Positions 11,314 to 24,300 of a stretch of DNA of 34,318 bases are shown here, piece by piece. The notes under the pieces were generated by a model, which did not search any database, was not told the origin of the DNA, and saw nothing but the letters and a program-made list of their open reading frames with translations. Numbering within the stretch: the stretch's first letter is position 1; the number at the start of each line of letters is the position of its first letter. Both the position numbers and the translations under genes were made by a program. The DNA is from Acidimicrobiales bacterium. GTDB taxonomy: Bacteria; Actinomycetota; Acidimicrobiia; Acidimicrobiales; Aldehydirespiratoraceae. Location: positions 81,909 through 116,226 of the forward strand of contig JAJCXZ010000059.1 in assembly GCA_029263175.1 (NCBI GenBank). Direction: 5' to 3'.

Positions 11314-14668
<3,355 letters not shown>

Positions 14669-14676
<8 letters not shown>

Positions 14677-17600
14677 GGTCGGCGCCGTTCACGGCGAGGT
14701 ACGGGGCGAGGTCGGGATCGTCGGCGATCCGGCGCCAGTCGCGGTGCTGATGGGAGAGCCCGAGGCCGTCGGGCTCACAGAACCAACAGTCGACCCATGG
14801 CCGGAAGCTCGGGGTCGCCGGATGCTGCGGGAACACACCGGCACCGATCCCGTCGCTGATCTCGGCGACGATGCCGAGCGCAGCGTCGGTGACCGGCTCG
14901 GTGATCGGATAGCCGACCGTGGAGAACTGGCCCCGAGAAGTGACGAACCAGTAGGCGCCGCGAGCAGGGTTGTCGATCCCCAGGACGCTGCGAGCGGCCA
15001 GGGCGTAGAGCACGAGCTGAAGATGCGCCCCGCCCGGCACGGGGTCCTCGGCGGTGAGCTTGTCGTAGCCGCGGGTAGAGCCGGTCTTGTAATCGATCAC
15101 GGTGAGCGTGCCGTCGCGGGCCTCGTCGATGCGATCGATCGCGCCTCGTAGGCGAAGCGAGCGACCGTCGGGAAGGGTGATCTCGATTGGTGGGGTCGAT
15201 GAACCGGGCATGCCGAACGGCAACTCGGTTGCGATGGGTCGCGTCCCGTGAGCCGCACGCTGGATGTTGTCGAACGCCAGGAATCCCGTGAGATCCTGGA
15301 GAAGCACCTGGCGCTCACGATTCCAGTAGACGCGGCGGCCGACCATGCCGCGAGCAGCCAGGCGATCCGCCTCCGCCTCACCCAGATCCCGCAGCCGGCG
15401 GAGCTGAGCCCCGGTCCAACCGATCCCTGGTTCGGGCACGGCATTCGTGATGATCTGTTCGTCGAGCCACTGGTCCAGGACGTCGTGAATCAGCGACCCT
15501 CGGGTGAGTGGGGTGATTCGGTAGGACTCCTCGGGATCCTCCACCGGATCGACCCGAAGTACATGGCGGACGAAGTAGGCGTGGGGACATGACGCCCACA
15601 TCTCCAGTCGGGTTGCCGATGTGATCTGGTCGGGGCTGATCGGCGAAGGCAGCGTGATGCCGCGGAGATCCCCGTCGGTGGCCAGGTTGCCGTCGAAACG
15701 GGTGAACCGCGGCGACTGTCGACCGGCCGTGAGAGCCACGGCCCGCTCGAGTTCGGGACGCTCGCGCAGCACCGGGTGCTGGGTGATGTCGCCGGAGTCC
15801 TCGGCGTGATCGAGTAGAGCGCGGACGTCGTACTCCTGAGGATGGGCAGGGAATCCCGCGGCTCGAAGACCGGCGATGAACGACGGAACCTCGGTGAGCC
15901 AGTCGCCGGTGCGCTGGTTGAGATCCTCAGCCGATGGTCGGCAGTGGTCCCGCTGTTCCACGGTGTCGAGTAGCCATCGAGACGGGGCCCGCTCGGCATT
16001 GCGCCGTAGATCGCCCCTCGGAAACGTGAATGTGGTGTGTTCGGCCGCACTCATCACCGCGAGCAGCGCCCGGTGCTGATCGTCGGCCGCGGCGGCCAAG
16101 AGCGGAAGATCGCGGCCTGCGATGCCGCGGATGCGGTCGGGTAGGAGTGGATCGTCGCGACGTCGCGCCGGCATAGAGCCCTCCGCCAGCCCGAGGATCA
16201 CTGCCGTATCGAGTTCGAGACCGATCGCATGGTCGACGGGTCCGACGAGAACGCCATGACCGAAGGTGCCGTGCCGACCGAGGTCGTCGCCGAGCTGGAG
16301 TTCGAGGGCTCGACGGAATGCAGATGTCGATGGGGAGGGGTCGATCCCGTCGAGATCGCCGAGCCGGTCGATGGCGGCATCGATCCGTTGACCGGCGGCG
16401 CGCTCTTCGGCGGGCCAGTGCTCCCGCAGGGACTCGCCGCCGAGATAGGTGCGGACCAGTGAACGACACCAGCCGGCGAGGCCCGACCACGACGCTGCTC
16501 TGGCGCCGGGATTCAGCGCTTGCGCGAGCGTGAGAACGAAGGTGCGGAGGTCGCCGGCGTGGCCGGCATCGCGACGGAGACGCGCTGCACGCCAGGCTTC
16601 CTCTTCGTGGAGTTCGAGCCGCTCGGCGTCGGATTCCAGGTCGACTCGGAGCTGATCGAGACGTTCGTCCCATTGGGTCGGCCCGGCCACGATGCCGGCG
16701 GCTCGCGACGCACGCTCCCAGGCCGCCACGGGTGCGGGCCGGTTGTCGAGTCCTCGAATAGGGGCGCCGGCCAGCCACGCGGCGACGTCGTGCCGCGAGA
16801 AGTTGTGGTCCGTGAGGCCGAGCAATGCGAGCAGCGAACGTCCGAGCAGCGACGCATCGGCGGTGCGCACTGATGTGCCGAACCACGGGATCTCGGCCGC
16901 GTCCAGGGCGTCTCCCACGAGTCGGGCGTAGGGCTCGCGGGAGCCGAACAGGATTGCCGTGCGATCGAAGGGTTGGCCGCGTCGGGCCGCGTCGGTGATG
17001 AGACGTACCGCGTGGCGGACTTCGTCATCGGCATCGGACACGCTGATGGCCTGATCGGCGATGGGTACAACCGGCGCACCCTCGACGCGCCATGTGAGCC
17101 CGAGCGTCTGGACGAGTTCGCGCACCGAGGCATCGGCCTCCACGACTCCGGTGACCCCGGCGACGACCTCGACCGATTGTGATTCGCTCAGCGCCCGGAT
17201 CAGGCGGGCCTGGTTGCTGGTGAGCCTCTGGGGGAGATGAATCAGGGTCGGGCCGAGCTGGCGTGCGACCGGAGATCCGGCGACAAGTTGCTCGATGGCG
17301 GCGGCGATGAGGTCCTGCTCGTCGGAGAACCCCGGCGCGAGCCGGGCGTGGACGCTCTCGTGGATTCGGACGACATCGGCGATGCGGACCGGTTGGTTCT
17401 TCAGTCGAGCGCGACCGCCCGCATCGACCTCGGACAGGGCCCGGTGGGCACGGACGAGCGACCGCTCGGTGGTCGGATGGGTGTGAACGCCGGCGAAGTG
17501 GCCGGGATCCTCGGCGAGCACGGCCCGTACGGCGCCGGCCAGGACGGGGGTCGAGACGGGTCGGCGTCCCGAGGCTGCGACTCGGCCGGCACCGAGCAGT

Positions 17601-17809
17601 TCGGCCAGGCGGTAGGGGGTGAGGAACGTGACGCCGGCGATGCCGCCGCGCCGGCCGAGCGCTCGCCGGGCGGCGATGCCGATCTGGTTGGAGTGCACCA
17701 CAACGGTGACCGGTGCCAGGGCATCGTCGGCCTTGTGGGTGGCGACCCGAGCCGCGAGCGTGTCGTGAGCGGCCGGTCCGTAGCTGGTCGTGGTGAGGGA
17801 GATGGCCAT
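14669..17809 (-). CDS. addB: AddB-like nuclease subunit with partial Fe-S cysteine set
   Basis: 1046-aa partner of the AddA-like subunit. The N-terminal two-thirds look like an inactive UvrD-like motor, because no Walker A motif is visible where one is expected (VVVHSNQIGIAARRAL). The C-terminal PD-(D/E)XK nuclease is intact: GAIDRIDEARDG, TVIDYKTGSTRG and HLQLVLYALAA. AddB nucleases hold a 4Fe-4S cluster with four Cys around the nuclease domain. Here Cys741 (WASCPHAYF) and Cys1008/Cys1011 (DCWFC) are present, but the last Cys is absent and His1020/His1022 lie nearby. The gene is first in a two-gene operon. A TACGAT box 9 nt before ATG and a 15-bp palindrome just upstream may form its promoter. 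Confidence 0.87.
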
Positions 17810-17853: not shown

Positions 17854-18687
17854 TCAGTGTTCGGGTGGCGCCACGAAGTCGATGAGCTCTTCGACCGCGC
17901 CGAGCAGAGGGATCTCGAGGTCGGTCCACGACGTGACCCTGGCGAGGATCTGCTGCCAGAACTGGCCCGTGGATCCGGTGGCGCCGAGGCCGGACATCAC
18001 GCCTTCTTTCCACGGCTGGCCCCTGGGAACATCGGGCCAGCGTTCGATCCCGACGACGCTGGGCTTCACGGCCTGCCAGATGTCGATGAATGGGTGGCCA
18101 CAGATCTTCACGTTGGGGTCGTCGACCTCGGCGGCGATGTGTGACTCCTTGGAGCCGTCGACCAGATGGTCGAGCAGGATGCCGAGTCGCCGGTTGGGGC
18201 CAGGGCGGAACCCCCGAACCCGGTCGGCGAGGTCGTCGGCGCCTTCCAGTTGCTCCACAACCACGCCCTCCACGCGGAGATCATCGCCCCAGACCTTCTC
18301 GATCAGTTCGGCATCGTGGATGCCTTCGACCCAGAGCCGGCTGGCCCGAGCCATCCGAGCGGGCACGTGGCCTGCTGAGATCGAACCGCTCGCCGTGACG
18401 CCAGGCGCAACGGCCTCCCGGCGCGGGACCACCAGCTTGCACGGCACGCCCTTACCGTCGATATCGGCCCGCACGGAGCCGGGCTCGTAGCGGACCGAAT
18501 GATCGCGGCCATGTCGATCGCGCAGAACCAGTTTCGGGTCACTGAACTGCATGACAACGCCGACAACACCGCTCGCCCGATCCTCGAGCACAAGCCCCGA
18601 ACGCACAGCAACGACCGGATAGTCGCGCTTGGCCTTGCTCGGGCCATTGAGATCGAGTGGCTCCGAGAGCATCCCATCATGTGGCAT
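17854..18687 (-). CDS. DUF3097 family protein
   Basis: 277-aa protein of an actinobacterial family of unknown function (DUF3097). Typical blocks are the opening YPVVAVRSGLVLEDRASG, ASRLWVEGIHDAELIEKVWG near the middle, VVVEQLEGADDLADRV, and RLGILLDHLVDGSKES followed by CGHPFIDIWQAVKP. The central block recalls a TOPRIM-like arrangement (VEGIHDAE) with downstream acidic LLDHLVDGSK, so nucleic-acid work is possible but unproven. The start MPHDGM at 18687 is supported by a TACGAT box exactly 6 nt upstream. The gene is divergent from the MerR-MenF gene and shares its 109-bp control region. Family recognition is confident; function is unknown. Confidence 0.85.
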   Translation of the reverse strand: MPHDGMLSEPLDLNGPSKAKRDYPVVAVRSGLVLEDRASGVVGVVMQFSDPKLVLRDRHGRDHSVRYEPGSVRADIDGKGVPCKLVVPRREAVAPGVTASGSISAGHVPARMARASRLWVEGIHDAELIEKVWGDDLRVEGVVVEQLEGADDLADRVRGFRPGPNRRLGILLDHLVDGSKESHIAAEVDDPNVKICGHPFIDIWQAVKPSVVGIERWPDVPRGQPWKEGVMSGLGATGSTGQFWQQILARVTSWTDLEIPLLGAVEELIDFVAPPEH

Positions 18688-18693
18688 CGACCG

Positions 18694-18699
18694 ATCGTA
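18694..18699 (-). promoter_or_regulatory. Leaderless -10 box for the DUF3097 gene
   Basis: TACGAT on the minus strand lies 6 nt before the ATG at 18687. No Shine-Dalgarno sequence is present, so the mRNA is predicted to be leaderless. Confidence 0.5.
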
Positions 18700-18754
18700 G
18701 AAGAGTGTGTTCGCCTCGAGGTGGAGCGGGGTACCGGCACCACCATCAACGATC

Positions 18755-18789
18755 GGAGCTGTCACTCGGGGAGTCACAGCTCCTACTAT
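18755..18789 (+). promoter_or_regulatory. MerR-type operator/promoter of the men operon
   Basis: A 29-bp near-perfect dyad covers 18755-18783: arms GGAGCTGTCACT and AGTCACAGCTCC, one mismatched pair and a 5-nt centre CGGGG. It directly abuts the -10 box TACTAT (18784-18789), which ends 7 nt before GTG 18797. CTGTCA (18759-18764) matches 4 of 6 bases of TTGACA and gives a 19-bp spacer, the long spacer typical of MerR-controlled promoters. The first gene encodes a MerR-type domain, so autoregulation is the natural reading. Confidence 0.65.
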
Positions 18790-18796
18790 GGATCTC

Positions 18797-20791
18797 GTGC
18801 ACGAGTTCCGGGTTGAAGAGTTGGCTGAGGCGGCCGACATCGCGGTCGACACCGTGCGGTACTACCAGCGCCAGCAACTCTTGGCACCGCCGCGCCGAGA
18901 GGGTCGACGGGCCATCTACGACGCGTCGCATCTCGAACGTCTGGCCGAGATCCGGCGCCTCGCGGACGAAGGATTCAGCCTCACCCAGATCCGTAGCTTG
19001 TCAACCGAGGACGCGTCCGGGCTGCTCGCTGATCTCGCTGCCCAGAACGCTGCCGATCCGGAGCTCGACAAGGCCGAGCTGGCGCGCCGCGCCGACGTGC
19101 CGGAGTTCATCGTCGACGTGGTGGTCAGCGCCGGCTTGATCGCCCCTTCCGGCGATACGGGCGAAGAGCGCTTTCCCGCGGATGCCGTCGACATGCTGGT
19201 GGCCGCGAAGACGCTCGTGAACGCGGGCGTGTCGATGGAAGAGCTGACCGCGCTCGCCCTGCGTCATGCAACCCACATCGAGGATGTGGTCGACGACGCC
19301 ATCGGAGTTTTCAAACGCCAGAGCGATCGAAACGGCGAGGACCGGGACGAGCTCATCGCCCTGATGCATCGGCTCGTGCCGGTTGCCTCATCGCTGGTCG
19401 GCCAGCACTTCGAACGCACGTTGCGGACGCGTGCCCTCGCTCGCCTCGGCGATGAGACGCTGGACGACGACGGAGGCGTGGTCGTGTTCTCACGTCGACT
19501 CGTCGAACGGGTCGATCCCGTCTCCGTCTTCATGACCGCCACCGACGGCCACCGGGCCCTCTGGATTCGCCCCGAGCTCGGCCAGGCCATCGTCGGAATC
19601 GGGGCCGTCGATACGATTGAGCCGTATGGCGAGAACCGGTTCTCGGCCGCGTCGGCGGCCAGGGCTGCATTGGGTGCTCGGGTTCGCCGCCATGGCCCCA
19701 CCGATGCGCCTGCTCCGGTGCTGTTGGGTGGGTTTTCGTTCGCCACGGGTTCGAGCAAGCACGGACCTGACTGGACCGGTTTCCCCGATGCCCGCTGGGT
19801 GCTCCCCGAGATCACGTTCTACGACCGGCCCGACGGGTCCTGGTTGATCGCTGCTGCCCGCATGGCGTCCGGCGACGACGAACGCATCGTGCTCGAATCG
19901 TTGGAGGCTCGAGTCGACGCGCTGGCCGCGGCACCGGCGTCGCCGGTGGAGGCCACCGACGTATTGCAGGGTGAGCCGAACGCCGACGACCAGGTCTATG
20001 TCGATCTTGTGGCCTCAGCCGTTCGCGACATCCGGGCCACCGACATGGGCAAGGTCGTGTGCGCCCGCGTGCAGGAGCGGGAGTCGATCGACATCGGAGT
20101 CACGCTTCAGCGTTTGGTTCCTCGCTATCCGACGTGCGCGGTGTTCGCCTTCGGTGTCGGTGATCGAACGTTCCTCGGTGCCAGCCCTGAGCAGCTCGTC
20201 CTCCTCGATGGCCGTGAGGTGCAGACCGTGGCATTGGCCGGCACCACTGCTCGTGGGTGGGACGACACCACCGACGAGGCGCTCGGAGCCGAGATGATGG
20301 CCTCTGCGAAAGTCCGTGAGGAGCACCAGTTCGTGGTGGACGACATCACCACCCGTCTGGCGACCCTTGGATTGGTCGGCCGCACACCTGAGGAGCCAGG
20401 CGTGCTTCGCCTTGCCCGAGTGCAGCATCTGTGCACCCCGATCACTGCTCGTGTCGAACGCCGGCGCGGCGGGGTCAGCGACATGGACGTGATCCGAGTG
20501 GCGAGCGTGTTGCACCCCACGCCGGCCGTGGCCGGCACCCCCACGAAGGACGCCCTCGATTGGTTGCAGGACAACGAGAACCTCGATCGTGGCTGGTACG
20601 CCGCCCCGGTCGGGTGGTGCGATCTCGACGGGAATGGCGAACTACGGGTTGCCCTTCGCTCCGCCCTCGTGGATCCGGACCGGGTTCAGCTGATCGCCGG
20701 TGCCGGCATCGTGGCCGACTCGGTGCCGGAGGACGAATTGGCCGAGACTGCGGTCAAGCTTCGTGCTCTTCTCGACGTAATGGAGATGTGA
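18797..20791 (+). CDS. menF: MerR-type DNA-binding domain fused to isochorismate synthase
   Basis: One 664-aa open frame with two parts. Residues 1-75 are a MerR winged helix (FRVEELAEAADIAVDTVRYY, QLLAPPRREGRRAIYD, LERLAEIRRLADEGFSL). Residues 90-175 look like a second MerR-like helical unit (ELARRADVPEFIVDVVVSAG, VNAGVSMEELTALALRH). From about 228 onward it is a complete isochorismate synthase converting chorismate to isochorismate for menaquinone: DMGKVVCARV with Lys419 as the general base, FLGASPEQLV, AGTTARG, EEHQFVVDDI, LHPTPAVAGTP, GWYAAPVGWCD and the final AGAGIV/Glu-rich helix. GTG 18797 is chosen because a TACTAT box lies 7 nt upstream; ATG 18788 overlaps that box. GGAGG (19472-19476) 7 nt before an in-frame GTG at 19484 could also start a separate 435-aa enzyme. 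Heads the men operon. Confidence 0.88.
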   Translation: MHEFRVEELAEAADIAVDTVRYYQRQQLLAPPRREGRRAIYDASHLERLAEIRRLADEGFSLTQIRSLSTEDASGLLADLAAQNAADPELDKAELARRADVPEFIVDVVVSAGLIAPSGDTGEERFPADAVDMLVAAKTLVNAGVSMEELTALALRHATHIEDVVDDAIGVFKRQSDRNGEDRDELIALMHRLVPVASSLVGQHFERTLRTRALARLGDETLDDDGGVVVFSRRLVERVDPVSVFMTATDGHRALWIRPELGQAIVGIGAVDTIEPYGENRFSAASAARAALGARVRRHGPTDAPAPVLLGGFSFATGSSKHGPDWTGFPDARWVLPEITFYDRPDGSWLIAAARMASGDDERIVLESLEARVDALAAAPASPVEATDVLQGEPNADDQVYVDLVASAVRDIRATDMGKVVCARVQERESIDIGVTLQRLVPRYPTCAVFAFGVGDRTFLGASPEQLVLLDGREVQTVALAGTTARGWDDTTDEALGAEMMASAKVREEHQFVVDDITTRLATLGLVGRTPEEPGVLRLARVQHLCTPITARVERRRGGVSDMDVIRVASVLHPTPAVAGTPTKDALDWLQDNENLDRGWYAAPVGWCDLDGNGELRVALRSALVDPDRVQLIAGAGIVADSVPEDELAETAVKLRALLDVMEM

Positions 20792-20792
20792 G

Positions 20793-22523
20793 ATGACGGA
20801 TCCCGTGTACGACCCGATCGCCGCGTTCGCGGCCACACTCGCGGGCCACGGGGTCACCGATGTGGTCATCAGCCCCGGGTCGCGGTCGACCCCGCTCGCC
20901 GTAGCGTTCCATGCCCGCCCTGACCTCCGTACGACGATTCATCTCGATGAGCGGTCGGCCGGCTTCTTCGCGGTCGGTCAGGCCCGGGCAACAGGGCGGC
21001 CTTCCGTTCTGATCTGCACATCCGGGTCCGCGGCGGCGAACTACCTGCCGGCCGTGGTCGAGGCCAACCACGCCGGTCTTCCTCTCATCGTCTGCACCGC
21101 TGATCGCCCGCCGGAGCTGCGGGACTGGGGCGCCGGGCAGACCATCGACCAGGTCGGCATCTATGGCCGCAACACGCGCTGGTTCGCCGACCTCCCTGTG
21201 CCATCTGACTGGTCCGAGGCCGCGGCTTCGATCGCGGCGATGCGTGCCATCGAAATGGCCACGGCGCCCCGTCGAGGCCCGGTGCATCTGAACTGGCCGT
21301 TGCGTGAGCCGCTCGAACCGGCCGGCCCCGTCCCGGTGCCCGATGCGATCGCCCCTCGGCCCAACCGACACGCCGACTTCCGGCTGGCTGAAGATCCACT
21401 CGGCGACCTCCCCCAGTTGGAGAAGGGCGTGATCATCGTCGGCCCCGACGTGGCTCCGAGCATCGCCGAGCAACACAAGATCTCAGATTGGATCTTGCGG
21501 TTCGCCGAGTCCGTTGCGTGGCCCGTCTTTGCCGAGCCGATCACCCAGCTCCGTCGCGGCCATCGCTACGGCGAGGAGTATGTGATGAACGCGGTCGATC
21601 ACCTGTGCAAGCACGCAACCGTCGACAGCCTTCGCCCTGACGTAGTGGTGCGTCTGGGGGCCAGCCCGACCACGAAGCCGGTGCGTGAATGGCTCGAGCG
21701 GGTCCAGCCCGAACATGTTGTGCTCATTGATCACGAACAGCGGTGGCACGATGCCTCCTTCACCGCCACCGAACACCATTCGGTCCCGCCTGTCACCGCT
21801 CTCGGTCGAGCGCGACGTCTCGGCAACGGGGTGCGAAATCGCAGCGAGTGGCTCGACGCCTGGTGGAATCTTGACGACAAGGCGTCCACCGTCGTGGATT
21901 GCATCGTTGCGGCGGGGCCACGCCTCAGTGCCCGGGTGACCCGCGAGTTCGTCGATGCTCTGCCCGATGAGGCGGTTGTCATGACCTCCAACTCGATGCC
22001 GGTGCGTGATCTCGACAGCTTCCTCGCCAACGGCGGCCCGAACACCACCTTTGTCGGGAACCGCGGTGCCAGTGGGATCGACGGCATCATCTCAACGGGG
22101 CTCGGCCTTGCGGCCTCCCAAGACGGGCCGGTCGTCGTCTACACGGGCGATCTCGCCCTTCTGCACGATCTGACCGGGCTGGCATCCGCCGCTCGTCTCG
22201 GCCTGCACCTCACCATCGTCTGCATCGACAACGACGGCGGCGGCATCTTCTCCCTGCTCCCGATCGCCCACGGCGATCGGGGTATCGACTTCGAGACACT
22301 GTTCCGCACACCCCATGGCATCGATCTCAGCGGACTCGACGGCTTCGCCGGCATACGGGCTTCGGTCCTCGGTGAAGATGTCGACATCGGTGAGGCCGTA
22401 CGAGCCGCGATCGCCTCGACCGCGGCCGGGGTTGATCTGCTGATCGTGCCGGTTGATCGCGACGCCGACGTCGCCCAACGCCGCAGCATCACCGCCGCAG
22501 TCGGAGAGGCGTTGTCTCGATGA
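20793..22523 (+). CDS. menD: SEPHCHC synthase MenD
   Basis: 576-aa thiamine-diphosphate enzyme that joins isochorismate and 2-oxoglutarate to form SEPHCHC, the second step of menaquinone synthesis. The N-terminal domain has SPGSRSTPLAVAFH, the substrate Arg/Glu region HLDERSAGFFAVGQA, CTSGSAAANYLPAV and ADRPPELRDWGAGQTIDQ. The C-terminal ThDP-binding domain has GNRGASGIDGIISTGLGLA, TGDLALLHDL and IDNDGGGIFS, the metal/diphosphate motif. Length matches the family (about 550-580). ATG 20793 lies one base after the MerR-MenF stop, with GGAG (20782-20785) as ribosome binding site inside that gene. Its last codons overlap menH by 4 bp. Confidence 0.96.
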   Translation: MTDPVYDPIAAFAATLAGHGVTDVVISPGSRSTPLAVAFHARPDLRTTIHLDERSAGFFAVGQARATGRPSVLICTSGSAAANYLPAVVEANHAGLPLIVCTADRPPELRDWGAGQTIDQVGIYGRNTRWFADLPVPSDWSEAAASIAAMRAIEMATAPRRGPVHLNWPLREPLEPAGPVPVPDAIAPRPNRHADFRLAEDPLGDLPQLEKGVIIVGPDVAPSIAEQHKISDWILRFAESVAWPVFAEPITQLRRGHRYGEEYVMNAVDHLCKHATVDSLRPDVVVRLGASPTTKPVREWLERVQPEHVVLIDHEQRWHDASFTATEHHSVPPVTALGRARRLGNGVRNRSEWLDAWWNLDDKASTVVDCIVAAGPRLSARVTREFVDALPDEAVVMTSNSMPVRDLDSFLANGGPNTTFVGNRGASGIDGIISTGLGLAASQDGPVVVYTGDLALLHDLTGLASAARLGLHLTIVCIDNDGGGIFSLLPIAHGDRGIDFETLFRTPHGIDLSGLDGFAGIRASVLGEDVDIGEAVRAAIASTAAGVDLLIVPVDRDADVAQRRSITAAVGEALSR

Positions 22524-23275
22524 GCCTGCCTGTCGTGGTGCTTCACGGATTCACGGGAAGCGGCCTCGCGATGGCGCCCCTGACCGACCGACTCTCGGCG
22601 GCGTCCGACATCGAGCGGGTGATTGCCCCCGACCTCGCCGGTCATGGGTCCGGTCCTCACTCTGCAGACGAGGCGGACTACACCGTCGATGCGATGGCGG
22701 ACTCGGTCGCCGGCCTGGTGGAAGGACCGGTCCATCTCATCGGCTACTCCATGGGTGGTCGGGTCGCACTGACGCTGGCCTGTCGACGGCCCGAACGAGT
22801 GGTGAGCCTTTCGCTCATCGGCGCTTCGGCCGGGCTCGCCGACCCCGCTGCCCGCGCTGTCCGCGCCGCGTCCGACGATGACCTCGCCGCTGATCTCGAA
22901 GCGGACCCGCCGGCATTCATCGATCGATGGATGCACAACCCGCTCTTTGCGACGCAAGAACGGCTCGGCCCTGGCGCATGGGCGGTGTCTCGGTCGCAGC
23001 GACTGGCGAACGACCCCGTAGCCATGGCTCGCAGTCTGCGTATGGGTGGCACCGGTCGGATGGTGCCTCTGCACCACATTCTCAGAGCCTGCACGATGCC
23101 GGTGGGGCTCATCGTGGGTTCGCTCGACGAGAAGTTCCAGGCGATTGCCGCCGATCTTGCCTTGGTGCTGCCGTGCGCGGACATCACATCGATCGCGAAC
23201 TCCGGCCACGCCACCCACGTCGAGCAACCGGACGCCACCGCGGCTGCGGTGCTCGCGACGATCGGCCGAGTGTGA
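22520..23275 (+). CDS. menH: SHCHC synthase MenH (alpha/beta hydrolase)
   Basis: 251-aa alpha/beta-hydrolase that eliminates pyruvate from SEPHCHC to give SHCHC. The fold starts at VVLHGFTGSG (5-14). The nucleophile elbow is GYSMGG with Ser77; Asp203 (GSLDEKF) and His230 (SGHATHVEQP) complete the triad, matching MenH organisation. The helical cap region contains the Arg/Trp-rich segment DRWMHNPLFA and LRMGGTGRM, as in MenH proteins. ATGA overlap with menD (22520-22523) and GTGA overlap with menC (23272-23275) imply translational coupling. Its place between menD and menC makes MenH more likely than a generic hydrolase. Confidence 0.9.
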   Translation: MSLPVVVLHGFTGSGLAMAPLTDRLSAASDIERVIAPDLAGHGSGPHSADEADYTVDAMADSVAGLVEGPVHLIGYSMGGRVALTLACRRPERVVSLSLIGASAGLADPAARAVRAASDDDLAADLEADPPAFIDRWMHNPLFATQERLGPGAWAVSRSQRLANDPVAMARSLRMGGTGRMVPLHHILRACTMPVGLIVGSLDEKFQAIAADLALVLPCADITSIANSGHATHVEQPDATAAAVLATIGRV

Positions 23276-24300
23276 AGTTCTCGATCACGCCATACGACCT
23301 GCGTCTGGTGGCGCCGTTCACCACGGCCCGTGCGACCGTCGACCGTCGCTCGGGTCTGCTCGTCACGCTGGCCGACGGCGAGCACGCCGGTTTCGGCGAG
23401 GTGGCCCCTATGCCGGGCTGGTCGCCGATCGACATCGATCGGGCCGGTGCCATGCTGCTGGCCGCTATTGCGGGCATCGAGGCCGGCGGTGACTTCGATG
23501 ACGCTCTCGATGACCTCGAACACGCCCCTGAAGTGCGAGCCGGCCTGGCCGGCGCGGCAGCGGACCTGGCCGCCCGCCGCCGTGGGCTCTCGCTCGCCCG
23601 TTCTCTCGACCCGGACTCGTCCTCGACTGTTGCGGTGAACGCTGTCGTCGGGTCCGGATCGCCAGCGCACACGGCGGCCGCGGGCCTCGACGCGATACAG
23701 CGAGGCTTCTCGGTCATCAAGGTGAAGGTCGGAGTCGTCGAGCCCGAAGTCGACATCGAGCGGGTGGCAGCGCTCCGGCGCGCGGTCGGCACGGATATCG
23801 AACTCCGGCTGGACGCAAACGGGGCTTGGGATCCGCTGACGGCGCAACGCGTGCTCGGCAGCGTCGCTGTCGACGAGATCGCATTCTGCGAGGAACCCGT
23901 CCCCGGCATCGACGCGATCGCGGCGCTGGGCGCAGCGAGCCCGATCCCACTTGCGATCGACGAGTCAGCGCGCACCGTCGACGACGTCGCTCGGGCGCTG
24001 GGCACCGGTGTGATCGACGTCGTCGTGATCAAGCCGCAATCGATCGGCGGACCGGATCTTGCCATGAGGGCAGTTCGATTGACCCGAGAATTCGGCGCCA
24101 CGCCGATCATCACCACCATGATCGACAGCGCCATAGGGGTGCGCCACGCCGTCCACGTGGCCGCCGCCAGCGGGGTGGACTTGGCCCACGGATTGGCGAC
24201 GTCGTCGAGCCTTGCCGACGACCTCGCCACTCCACCGATGATTGTCGACGGAACCATCTCGGTCGGGTCGTCGCCTGGTCTCGGTGTGACCCCGCACTGA
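23272..24300 (+). CDS. menC: o-Succinylbenzoate synthase MenC
   Basis: 342-aa enolase-superfamily enzyme that dehydrates SHCHC to o-succinylbenzoate. Catalytic residues are all visible: the KxK pair Lys150/Lys152 (SVIKVKVG), metal ligands Asp181 (LDANGAW), Glu207 (FCEEPVPG) and Asp230 (AIDESA), and Lys254 (VVIKPQSIGG). The N-terminal capping domain (MKFSITPYDLRL to GFGEVAPMPGWS) has the family's form. GTG 23272 overlaps the menH stop; the longer open frame further upstream is inside menH. The gene is last in the cluster: menB, menE and menA must be elsewhere. A weak stem (CTCGGC/GCCGAG, 24330-24358) follows. Confidence 0.95.
   Translation: MKFSITPYDLRLVAPFTTARATVDRRSGLLVTLADGEHAGFGEVAPMPGWSPIDIDRAGAMLLAAIAGIEAGGDFDDALDDLEHAPEVRAGLAGAAADLAARRRGLSLARSLDPDSSSTVAVNAVVGSGSPAHTAAAGLDAIQRGFSVIKVKVGVVEPEVDIERVAALRRAVGTDIELRLDANGAWDPLTAQRVLGSVAVDEIAFCEEPVPGIDAIAALGAASPIPLAIDESARTVDDVARALGTGVIDVVVIKPQSIGGPDLAMRAVRLTREFGATPIITTMIDSAIGVRHAVHVAAASGVDLAHGLATSSSLADDLATPPMIVDGTISVGSSPGLGVTPH

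Follow-up and report, generated by a model that had tools for sequence, protein, structure and literature searches.

Trigger enzymes of the PutA type combine an enzyme and the DNA-binding regulator of its own operon in a single chain. PutA itself carries a ribbon-helix-helix domain and belongs to proline metabolism. The gene described here differs in carrying a MerR domain and in belonging to menaquinone synthesis. It lies in the window, a 34,318-nucleotide (nt) stretch of contig JAJCXZ010000059.1 (positions 81,909 to 116,226, assembly GCA_029263175.1) from an Acidimicrobiales bacterium of the family Aldehydirespiratoraceae, phylum Actinomycetota, and it encodes two MerR-like units followed by an isochorismate synthase (MenF). 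The combination by which trigger enzymes are recognized, catalytic and DNA-binding domains in one chain that heads an operon, is present in its sequence. Comparison with related loci indicates that the gene probably encodes an autoregulatory ('trigger') isochorismate synthase that controls its own men operon.

The known isochorismate synthases MenF, EntC and DhbC have chains of 391–458 amino acids (aa), compared with 664 aa here, and to our knowledge none of them contains a MerR part. The likeness is confined to the enzyme part, which scores above the cut-off of the NCBIfam family TIGR00543, retains the EntC residues and has MenF as its top fold match. Isochorismate can also leave the pathway for other products. 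Feedback of 1,4-dihydroxy-2-naphthoic acid (DHNA) on MenD has been described (PMC9835592; PMC12421875). That control is allosteric and acts on MenD activity, and the abstracts of these reports name no DNA-binding regulator of menF. In its available text, PMC9835592 terms MenD the first committed enzyme, a place that an earlier reading of this DNA (the initial annotation) had mistakenly assigned to MenF.

Among MerR-type regulators, FtsR of Corynebacterium glutamicum is a 252-aa protein with an N-terminal MerR helix-turn-helix (HTH), which controls ftsZ and is encoded beside odhI/garA (PMC6683498, in excerpt). The C-terminal domain of the related Rv1828 aligns with residues 88–211 of the window protein with a Z score of 9.2 and a root mean square deviation (rmsd) of 4.7. 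The regulator described here differs in being tied and fused to menF, FtsR acting on ftsZ according to the same excerpt. Two separate relatives without the first MerR unit, L207 and L092, scored 23 and 28.5 bits respectively against the FtsR equivalog NF050798 (cut-off 150), and this family was not among the matches listed for the window protein (25 of 42 families). CbpM is an example of a MerR fold used in protein–protein control, binding a J-domain (PMC4063869, in excerpt). It aligns with window residues 81–180 (Z 10.2, rmsd 6.4 over 97 residues) and, as far as the excerpt describes it, differs in being a separate small J-domain-binding protein without an enzyme fusion. No earlier description of a MerR regulator of menF, or of a MerR–isochorismate synthase fusion, was found in the open literature, among the matches listed and by title or start of abstract; neither was open literature on menaquinone trigger enzymes or on menaquinone biosynthesis in Ilumatobacter. 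If the proposed autoregulation is real, a dedicated DNA-binding regulator of menaquinone synthesis, present at many places across the phylum and fused in some of them to the first enzyme, would represent a new layer of control.

The fused gene and its upstream region comprise the following features.

18756 to 18782, no strand: operator GAGC-TGTC-ACTC-GGG-GAGT-CACA-GCTC, with four GAGY-type quarter sites.
18784 to 18789, forward strand: putative -10 element TACTAT, which abuts the operator and ends 7 nt ahead of the GTG start.
18797 to 20791, forward strand: fused regulator–isochorismate synthase gene, an open frame with a GTG start, 664 aa plus stop.
18803 to 19012, forward strand: predicted DNA-binding MerR winged helix, residues 3–72 (Pfam MerR_1, predicted fold, R21 and Y23 kept).
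19058 to 19234, forward strand: second, degenerate MerR winged helix, residues 88–146, DNA-contact residues lost (predicted fold, alignment).
19235 to 19453, forward strand: two long helices, residues 147–219, a probable dimerization or enzyme-contact element (predicted structure).
19481 to 20788, forward strand: isochorismate synthase part, residues 229–664 (TIGR00543, EntC alignment).

As the initial annotation had stated, a single uninterrupted frame joins the MerR part to the isochorismate synthase, and both parts matched Pfam or NCBIfam families above their cut-offs. Pfam MerR_1 matched residues 4–68 (E 9.8e-22), the two MerR families PF13411 and PF00376 giving 77.3 bits (cut-off 21.6) and 32.3 bits (cut-off 28.2) respectively, and Chorismate_bind matched residues 398–654 (E 6.9e-66). 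Among 51 genomes of the family, the whole three-part fusion was found in 30, including G028, a one-contig assembly, and a fusion without the first unit was found in 16. The remaining five hold the enzyme alone (G023), fragments (G015 and G019) or weak matches only (G010 and G021). A whole fusion of 89% identity is also present on the contig JAERSO010000129.1 of a public metagenome-assembled genome (MAG). A frame or assembly error as the source of the fusion was rejected on these grounds, and no stop or frameshift between the two parts, which the initial annotation had named as telling against it, was borne out. A start at the earlier in-frame GTG at 18707 (a 694-aa frame) is unlikely, since the operator would then fall inside the coding sequence, and it is further disfavoured by two relatives, L028 and L030, which have a stop just ahead of the gene.

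The operator is an inverted repeat at the start of the gene. Its full dyad, GGAGCTGTCACTC-GGG-GAGTCACAGCTCC (18755–18783), has 13-nt arms (18755–18767 and 18771–18783) with one mismatch between them. The consensus GAGYN4ACTC-N3-GAGTN4RCTC, which consists of two GAGYN4RCTC dyads, was found ahead of both fused and separate genes in several families. A MerR-type operator at the gene's own promoter, as had been proposed, is thus upheld by a dyad that abuts the putative -10 and that co-occurs with the DNA-binding domain. From the position of the -10 we infer a leaderless transcript for the fusion gene. A weak -35-like element, CTGTCA (18759–18764), lies inside the operator, matching at four of six positions and separated from the putative -10 by a 19-nt spacer. 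A long -35/-10 spacing has been described for MerR promoters (PMC6683498, in excerpt). The exact operator occurs once in the 4.4-Mb genome.

Over 81 sites, the quarter-site positions carried 1.0–2.0 bits and the spacers at most 0.4 bits; the sites were picked by pattern, which inflates the bits at the pattern positions, and at positions 28–30 of this table, the -10 is confounded with the start codons that loci outside the order have there. Within the order, the positions kept outside the pattern fall where the -10 lies (T29 in 39, A30 in 55 and T34 in 56 of 56 sites), and TAnnnT stands directly 3' of the operator in 39 of the 56 strict sites. Outside the order, TAnnnT lies within the operator centre in 23 of 24 strict sites and a start codon follows the operator directly in 21 of 24. 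The operator is there placed 15 nt further downstream relative to the putative -10 (for example at L163 and L170), a distance of one dyad plus spacer, so that a bound protein would be expected to cover the putative -10. Separately, a perfect version of the operator with 14-nt arms was observed upstream of the start of an f59 fusion, L041 (G179:C27).

The evidence that carries the regulatory reading is the joint presence and absence of operator and DNA-binding domain among related loci, for which the 200 nt upstream were scanned and mismatches counted at the 16 specified positions. All 33 fused loci with the first unit had 0–1 mismatches, and the separate loci with it (n = 24) had 0–4. Domain-less loci had 5–7 mismatches when fused (n = 17) and 6–7 when separate (n = 4), enzyme-only loci (n = 12) had 5–7, and shuffled sequence gave a mean of about 6.4. 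Taking all 144 loci with the second unit, an operator at three mismatches or fewer was present at 80 of the 92 that hold the DNA-binding domain and at none of the 52 that lack it. Extending the scan to 700 nt upstream (less where the locus was shorter) gave no such operator at any of the 52 domain-less loci; their best sites had 5–7 mismatches, like shuffles, and no separate upstream open reading frame with the lost HTH was found in them within 700 nt. Similarly, when the pattern was extended by the TA that follows the site and one mismatch was allowed, it matched at the locus in all intact-fusion genomes except G025 (29 of 30) and in none of the 16 family genomes without the first unit; one other match, in G010, lay elsewhere. 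The same association holds within a single genus, f59/g68, in which G309 (L077, C36) combines the first unit with a perfect operator and G229 (L078, C32) has neither, its first unit being gone by an apparent internal deletion. Because operator and DNA-binding domain co-occur, we infer DNA binding, and the operator is probably the sequence read by the MerR switch of the fusion. This comparison lends strong support to autoregulation of the men operon, and the control loop suggested in the initial annotation has thereby gained comparative backing.

The first unit also appears to be maintained wherever it is present. In 13 pairs of fused proteins, the ratio of nonsynonymous to synonymous substitution rates (dN/dS) was 0.00–0.27 for the first unit, 0.01–0.21 for the second part and 0.05–0.16 for the enzyme, values which indicate that purifying selection acts on the three-part polypeptide and that its DNA-binding unit shows no decay. 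An alignment of 29 first units has R21 and Y23 without exception and Y or F at position 22.

Several observations weigh against this reading. Twelve of the 92 domain-bearing loci lack the strict operator; one or more GAGYN4RCTC dyads remain at nine of these, and the other three (L159, L189 and L190) are without any. L098 passes at three mismatches yet contains no such dyad. Conversely, six of the 52 domain-less loci retain one dyad, five of them in genus g2 beside the putative -10, where the dyads are perhaps remnants. The loci are related to one another, some being nearly identical, and independent contrasts on the enzyme tree numbered 3 to 4 concordant and none discordant, for which the sign test falls short of 0.05; on the weakly resolved tree of the second unit about 4.3 of 5 contrasts were concordant, again short of 0.05. 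A standard sigma-70 promoter with a 16–18 nt spacer was looked for and not found. The window genome holds eight more places within one mismatch of the 16-position pattern, and at two mismatches the pattern gives fewer genome matches than a reversed control, which is background; near-matches reaching background in this way, only the exact site stands out. Finally, in 9 of the 13 pairs the DNA-binding unit evolves faster, by dN/dS, than either other part.

The enzyme part matched TIGR00543 over residues 308–661 (288.4 bits, cut-off 224.75). K419, E465, E509 and E650 align with EntC K147, E197, E241 and E376, and they are invariant across an alignment of 23 fused proteins that includes the window protein. 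We take the aligned EntC residues to have catalytic and Mg roles. The best fold matches of the full-length model were the MenF structures 3gse, 3bzm and 3bzn. The predicted activity is the conversion of chorismate to isochorismate, which the context of menD, a menH-like gene and menC supports. These genes follow directly, as assigned by NCBIfam, and the fusion heads a menF-menD-menH-menC operon just as first described.

20793 to 22523, forward strand: menD, 2-succinyl-5-enolpyruvyl-6-hydroxy-3-cyclohexene-1-carboxylate (SEPHCHC) synthase (TIGR00173, 406.7 bits, cut-off 244.2), its ATG 1 nt beyond the menF stop.
22520 to 23275, forward strand: menH-like hydrolase (TIGR03695, 188.5 bits, below the cut-off of 208.55), overlapping menD by 4 nt.
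22927 to 24300, forward strand: frame with menC, the MenC domain running from about 23290 (TIGR01927, 162.1 bits, cut-off 130.55).

In the mechanism proposed, dimers of the fusion protein, formed via helices 147–219, would bind the operator next to the putative -10 and so set the transcription of menF-menD-menH-menC, which would probably be the only target because the exact site is single. Information on the enzyme's state, whether substrate, product or oligomer, would reach the DNA-binding unit through the second unit. Where regulator and enzyme are encoded separately, the former would do the same in trans, usually from a frame that overlaps menF, and fusion would provide permanent contact and a fixed stoichiometry. 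MerR proteins both activate and repress. Feedback repression relieved by the state of the enzyme or of a metabolite is the more likely direction, because in classes of the phylum other than that of the window the putative -10 falls under the operator, which directly adjoins the start codon.

The two MerR-like units of the initial annotation are borne out as folds and differ in their expected function. A predicted structure of residues 1–230 contains tandem MerR winged helices (mean predicted local distance difference test score, pLDDT, 86.9; predicted template modelling score, pTM, 0.55), and, for the first unit, alignment to known MerR structures gave Z scores as high as 12. The second unit, with helices 92–98 and 103–111, a wing and helix 130–142, gave no Pfam match within the whole protein and 16 bits as a fragment, against a cut-off of 21.6. 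After this second fold stand the long helices 147–179 and 183–219, whose role in dimerization is predicted. Helix 103–111 is the counterpart of the contact helix; across the 34 rows aligned, neither R nor Y is conserved in it, and the wing of the second unit is acidic in the window protein. DNA binding therefore looks possible for the first unit only, the second, without the conserved R21/Y22/Y23, being probably no DNA binder.

Despite this, the second unit persists. Families in which loci without the first unit were seen are f1 (genera g2, g3 and g5), f59 (L078), f35 and several that lie outside the order. The second unit was nevertheless kept with the enzyme, a point that had gone unnoticed in the initial annotation, at 17 fused and 4 separate domain-less loci within the order and at 31 outside it. 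All 31 are separate genes followed, in the same orientation, by an isochorismate synthase match, at a gap of -64 to 195 nt in 30 of them (not estimable at L205). The loci were found with a profile of the second unit, so that its persistence, partly a selection effect, is shown by these counts and its frequency is not. Structurally, the second unit was matched to CbpM, CvkR and the Rv1828 C-terminal domain at Z 9–10, although the structure aligner warns that values below about 13 for helical models may reflect a mere common arrangement. The persistence after domain loss, the lost contact residues and the likeness to the CbpM fold together suggest that the second unit acts on MenF itself. In a separate observation, Foldseek matched the tandem unit to Rv1264N (template modelling score 0.48–0.53), which serves as regulatory domain in an adenylyl cyclase of mycobacteria and is another such fold that precedes an enzyme; the open literature searched on this likeness yielded nothing relevant.

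These same findings supply the strongest competing explanation, in which the MerR part controls the enzyme allosterically, by binding protein, and DNA binding is secondary or has been lost in many lineages. It is favoured by the outlasting of the first unit by the second, by the absence of R21/Y22/Y23 from the latter and by its fold matches, Rv1264N included. Against it, loci that keep the DNA-binding unit show it conserved and accompanied by an operator, so that DNA binding does not look vestigial there; the contact between the second unit and the enzyme is a prediction, the full-length model being of low confidence across much of 140–225 and saying nothing on this contact; and the fold and persistence arguments are subject to the reservations just given. 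This explanation is possible and rather doubtful. A tentative extension of the autoregulatory reading would accommodate both roles by making MenF the sensor of a phylum-wide menaquinone control. In this scheme, the second unit would hold the enzyme, in trans or fused, and read its catalytic state, the first unit would control the single men operator, and after loss of the DNA-binding domain the second unit would survive as an allosteric subunit or domain. Were it correct, a transcription factor would have been turned into part of an enzyme.

The possibility that translation also begins internally near residue 230, giving a free enzyme besides the fusion, has a local basis in the window, where GGAGG (19472–19476) stands 7 nt ahead of an in-frame GTG at 19484. 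Among 50 fused relatives, however, a ribosome-site match of at least 5 nt before an in-frame start occurred in 3, with 2.1 expected from synonymous shuffles and 18 of 50 shuffles reaching 3 or more, so that this explanation is improbable. Still less probable is that the operator belongs to another regulator, the MerR part being an evolutionary relic in the fusion. The six domain-less loci with one dyad and the four domain-bearing loci with none would fit such a regulator; the strict operator is nevertheless absent from all 52 domain-less loci and from all 16 family genomes with a domain-less fusion, the dN/dS of the domain (0–0.27) is low, and about one site per genome is ill-suited to a global regulator. 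The reading of the dyad as an RNA hairpin (attenuator or terminator) instead of a protein site is very improbable: its arms do pair over 13 nt with one mismatch in the window, but over the 81 sites just 115 of 324 pairs of opposing N4 positions are complementary, without co-variation, the dyad is upstream of the putative -10 and thus outside a transcript from it, and a terminator was not found.

The autoregulatory fusion has a wider background of separate genes. In the order, a match at E 1e-40 or better was obtained in 160 of 298 genomes, and among the matches listed several other families encode the regulator as a separate gene just 5' of the enzyme. The 40 places compared in the order were hand-picked, so that counts for the order refer to loci examined and not to all genomes. 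A possible enzyme start overlaps the regulator stop by 4 or 10 nt in 27 of the 28 separate pairs examined in the order, L098 being the sole exception. A sample of the phylum contained the second-unit family in 63 of 296 genomes, three of these from the order of the window. In the 66 further loci (65 outside the order and L178 inside it), an isochorismate synthase match lay downstream of the regulator in 63 and the fused form in none. In 16 of these 63 loci there is room for one intervening gene between regulator and isochorismate synthase, and where a gene intervenes outside the order the regulator may control menG too. At L161 (707–2202, reverse strand), the only one checked, the intervening gene is of the menG/ubiE type; the 15 other loci have a gap of 550–760 nt. 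A second copy of the regulator was not found in the window genome (G000), in which the second-unit profile gave one match at E 1e-8.

The enzyme-part tree (91 rows) requires three changes between fused and separate forms among the rows with a second unit, and a single origin of all fusions was rejected by an approximately unbiased (AU) test (p 4e-90). This tree was built quickly and has long branches, and the tested group was named only once the tree had been seen. L001–L006, L036–L038 and L042 (window, other genes and duplicates) and the menF-less fragment L074 were omitted from this tree and from the operator table, the window itself being added back to the tree only, and the second-unit tree omits L196, L197 and L199 (weak matches with no menF nearby) and 12 loci without a second unit. 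Because the tree needs three changes and the AU test rejects one fused clade, the sequences indicate that genes were fused on two or more occasions, in f1 and in f59. The fusion is derived from a widespread two-gene pair, a tandem-MerR gene upstream of menF. The initial annotation had regarded two separate genes in relatives as contrary to its reading; such pairs were found, yet the fused and separate forms coexist with a common operator. The natural series of separate pair, fusion, fusion without the domain and pair without the domain constitutes a rare, testable record of a transcription factor absorbed by its enzyme.

On its other side, the upstream region of the fusion gene is shared with a divergent DUF3097 gene (17854–18852, reverse strand). 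Retention of the operator for this gene was rejected as an explanation, because the DUF3097 neighbour flanks 21 loci, all of family f1, and the operator is also kept in other families. Beyond it lie two large adjoining genes (11314–17809, reverse strand), presumably an AddAB-type pair: one product is a UvrD-type helicase that carries a PD-(D/E)XK nuclease domain, and the other is likewise a PD-(D/E)XK protein.

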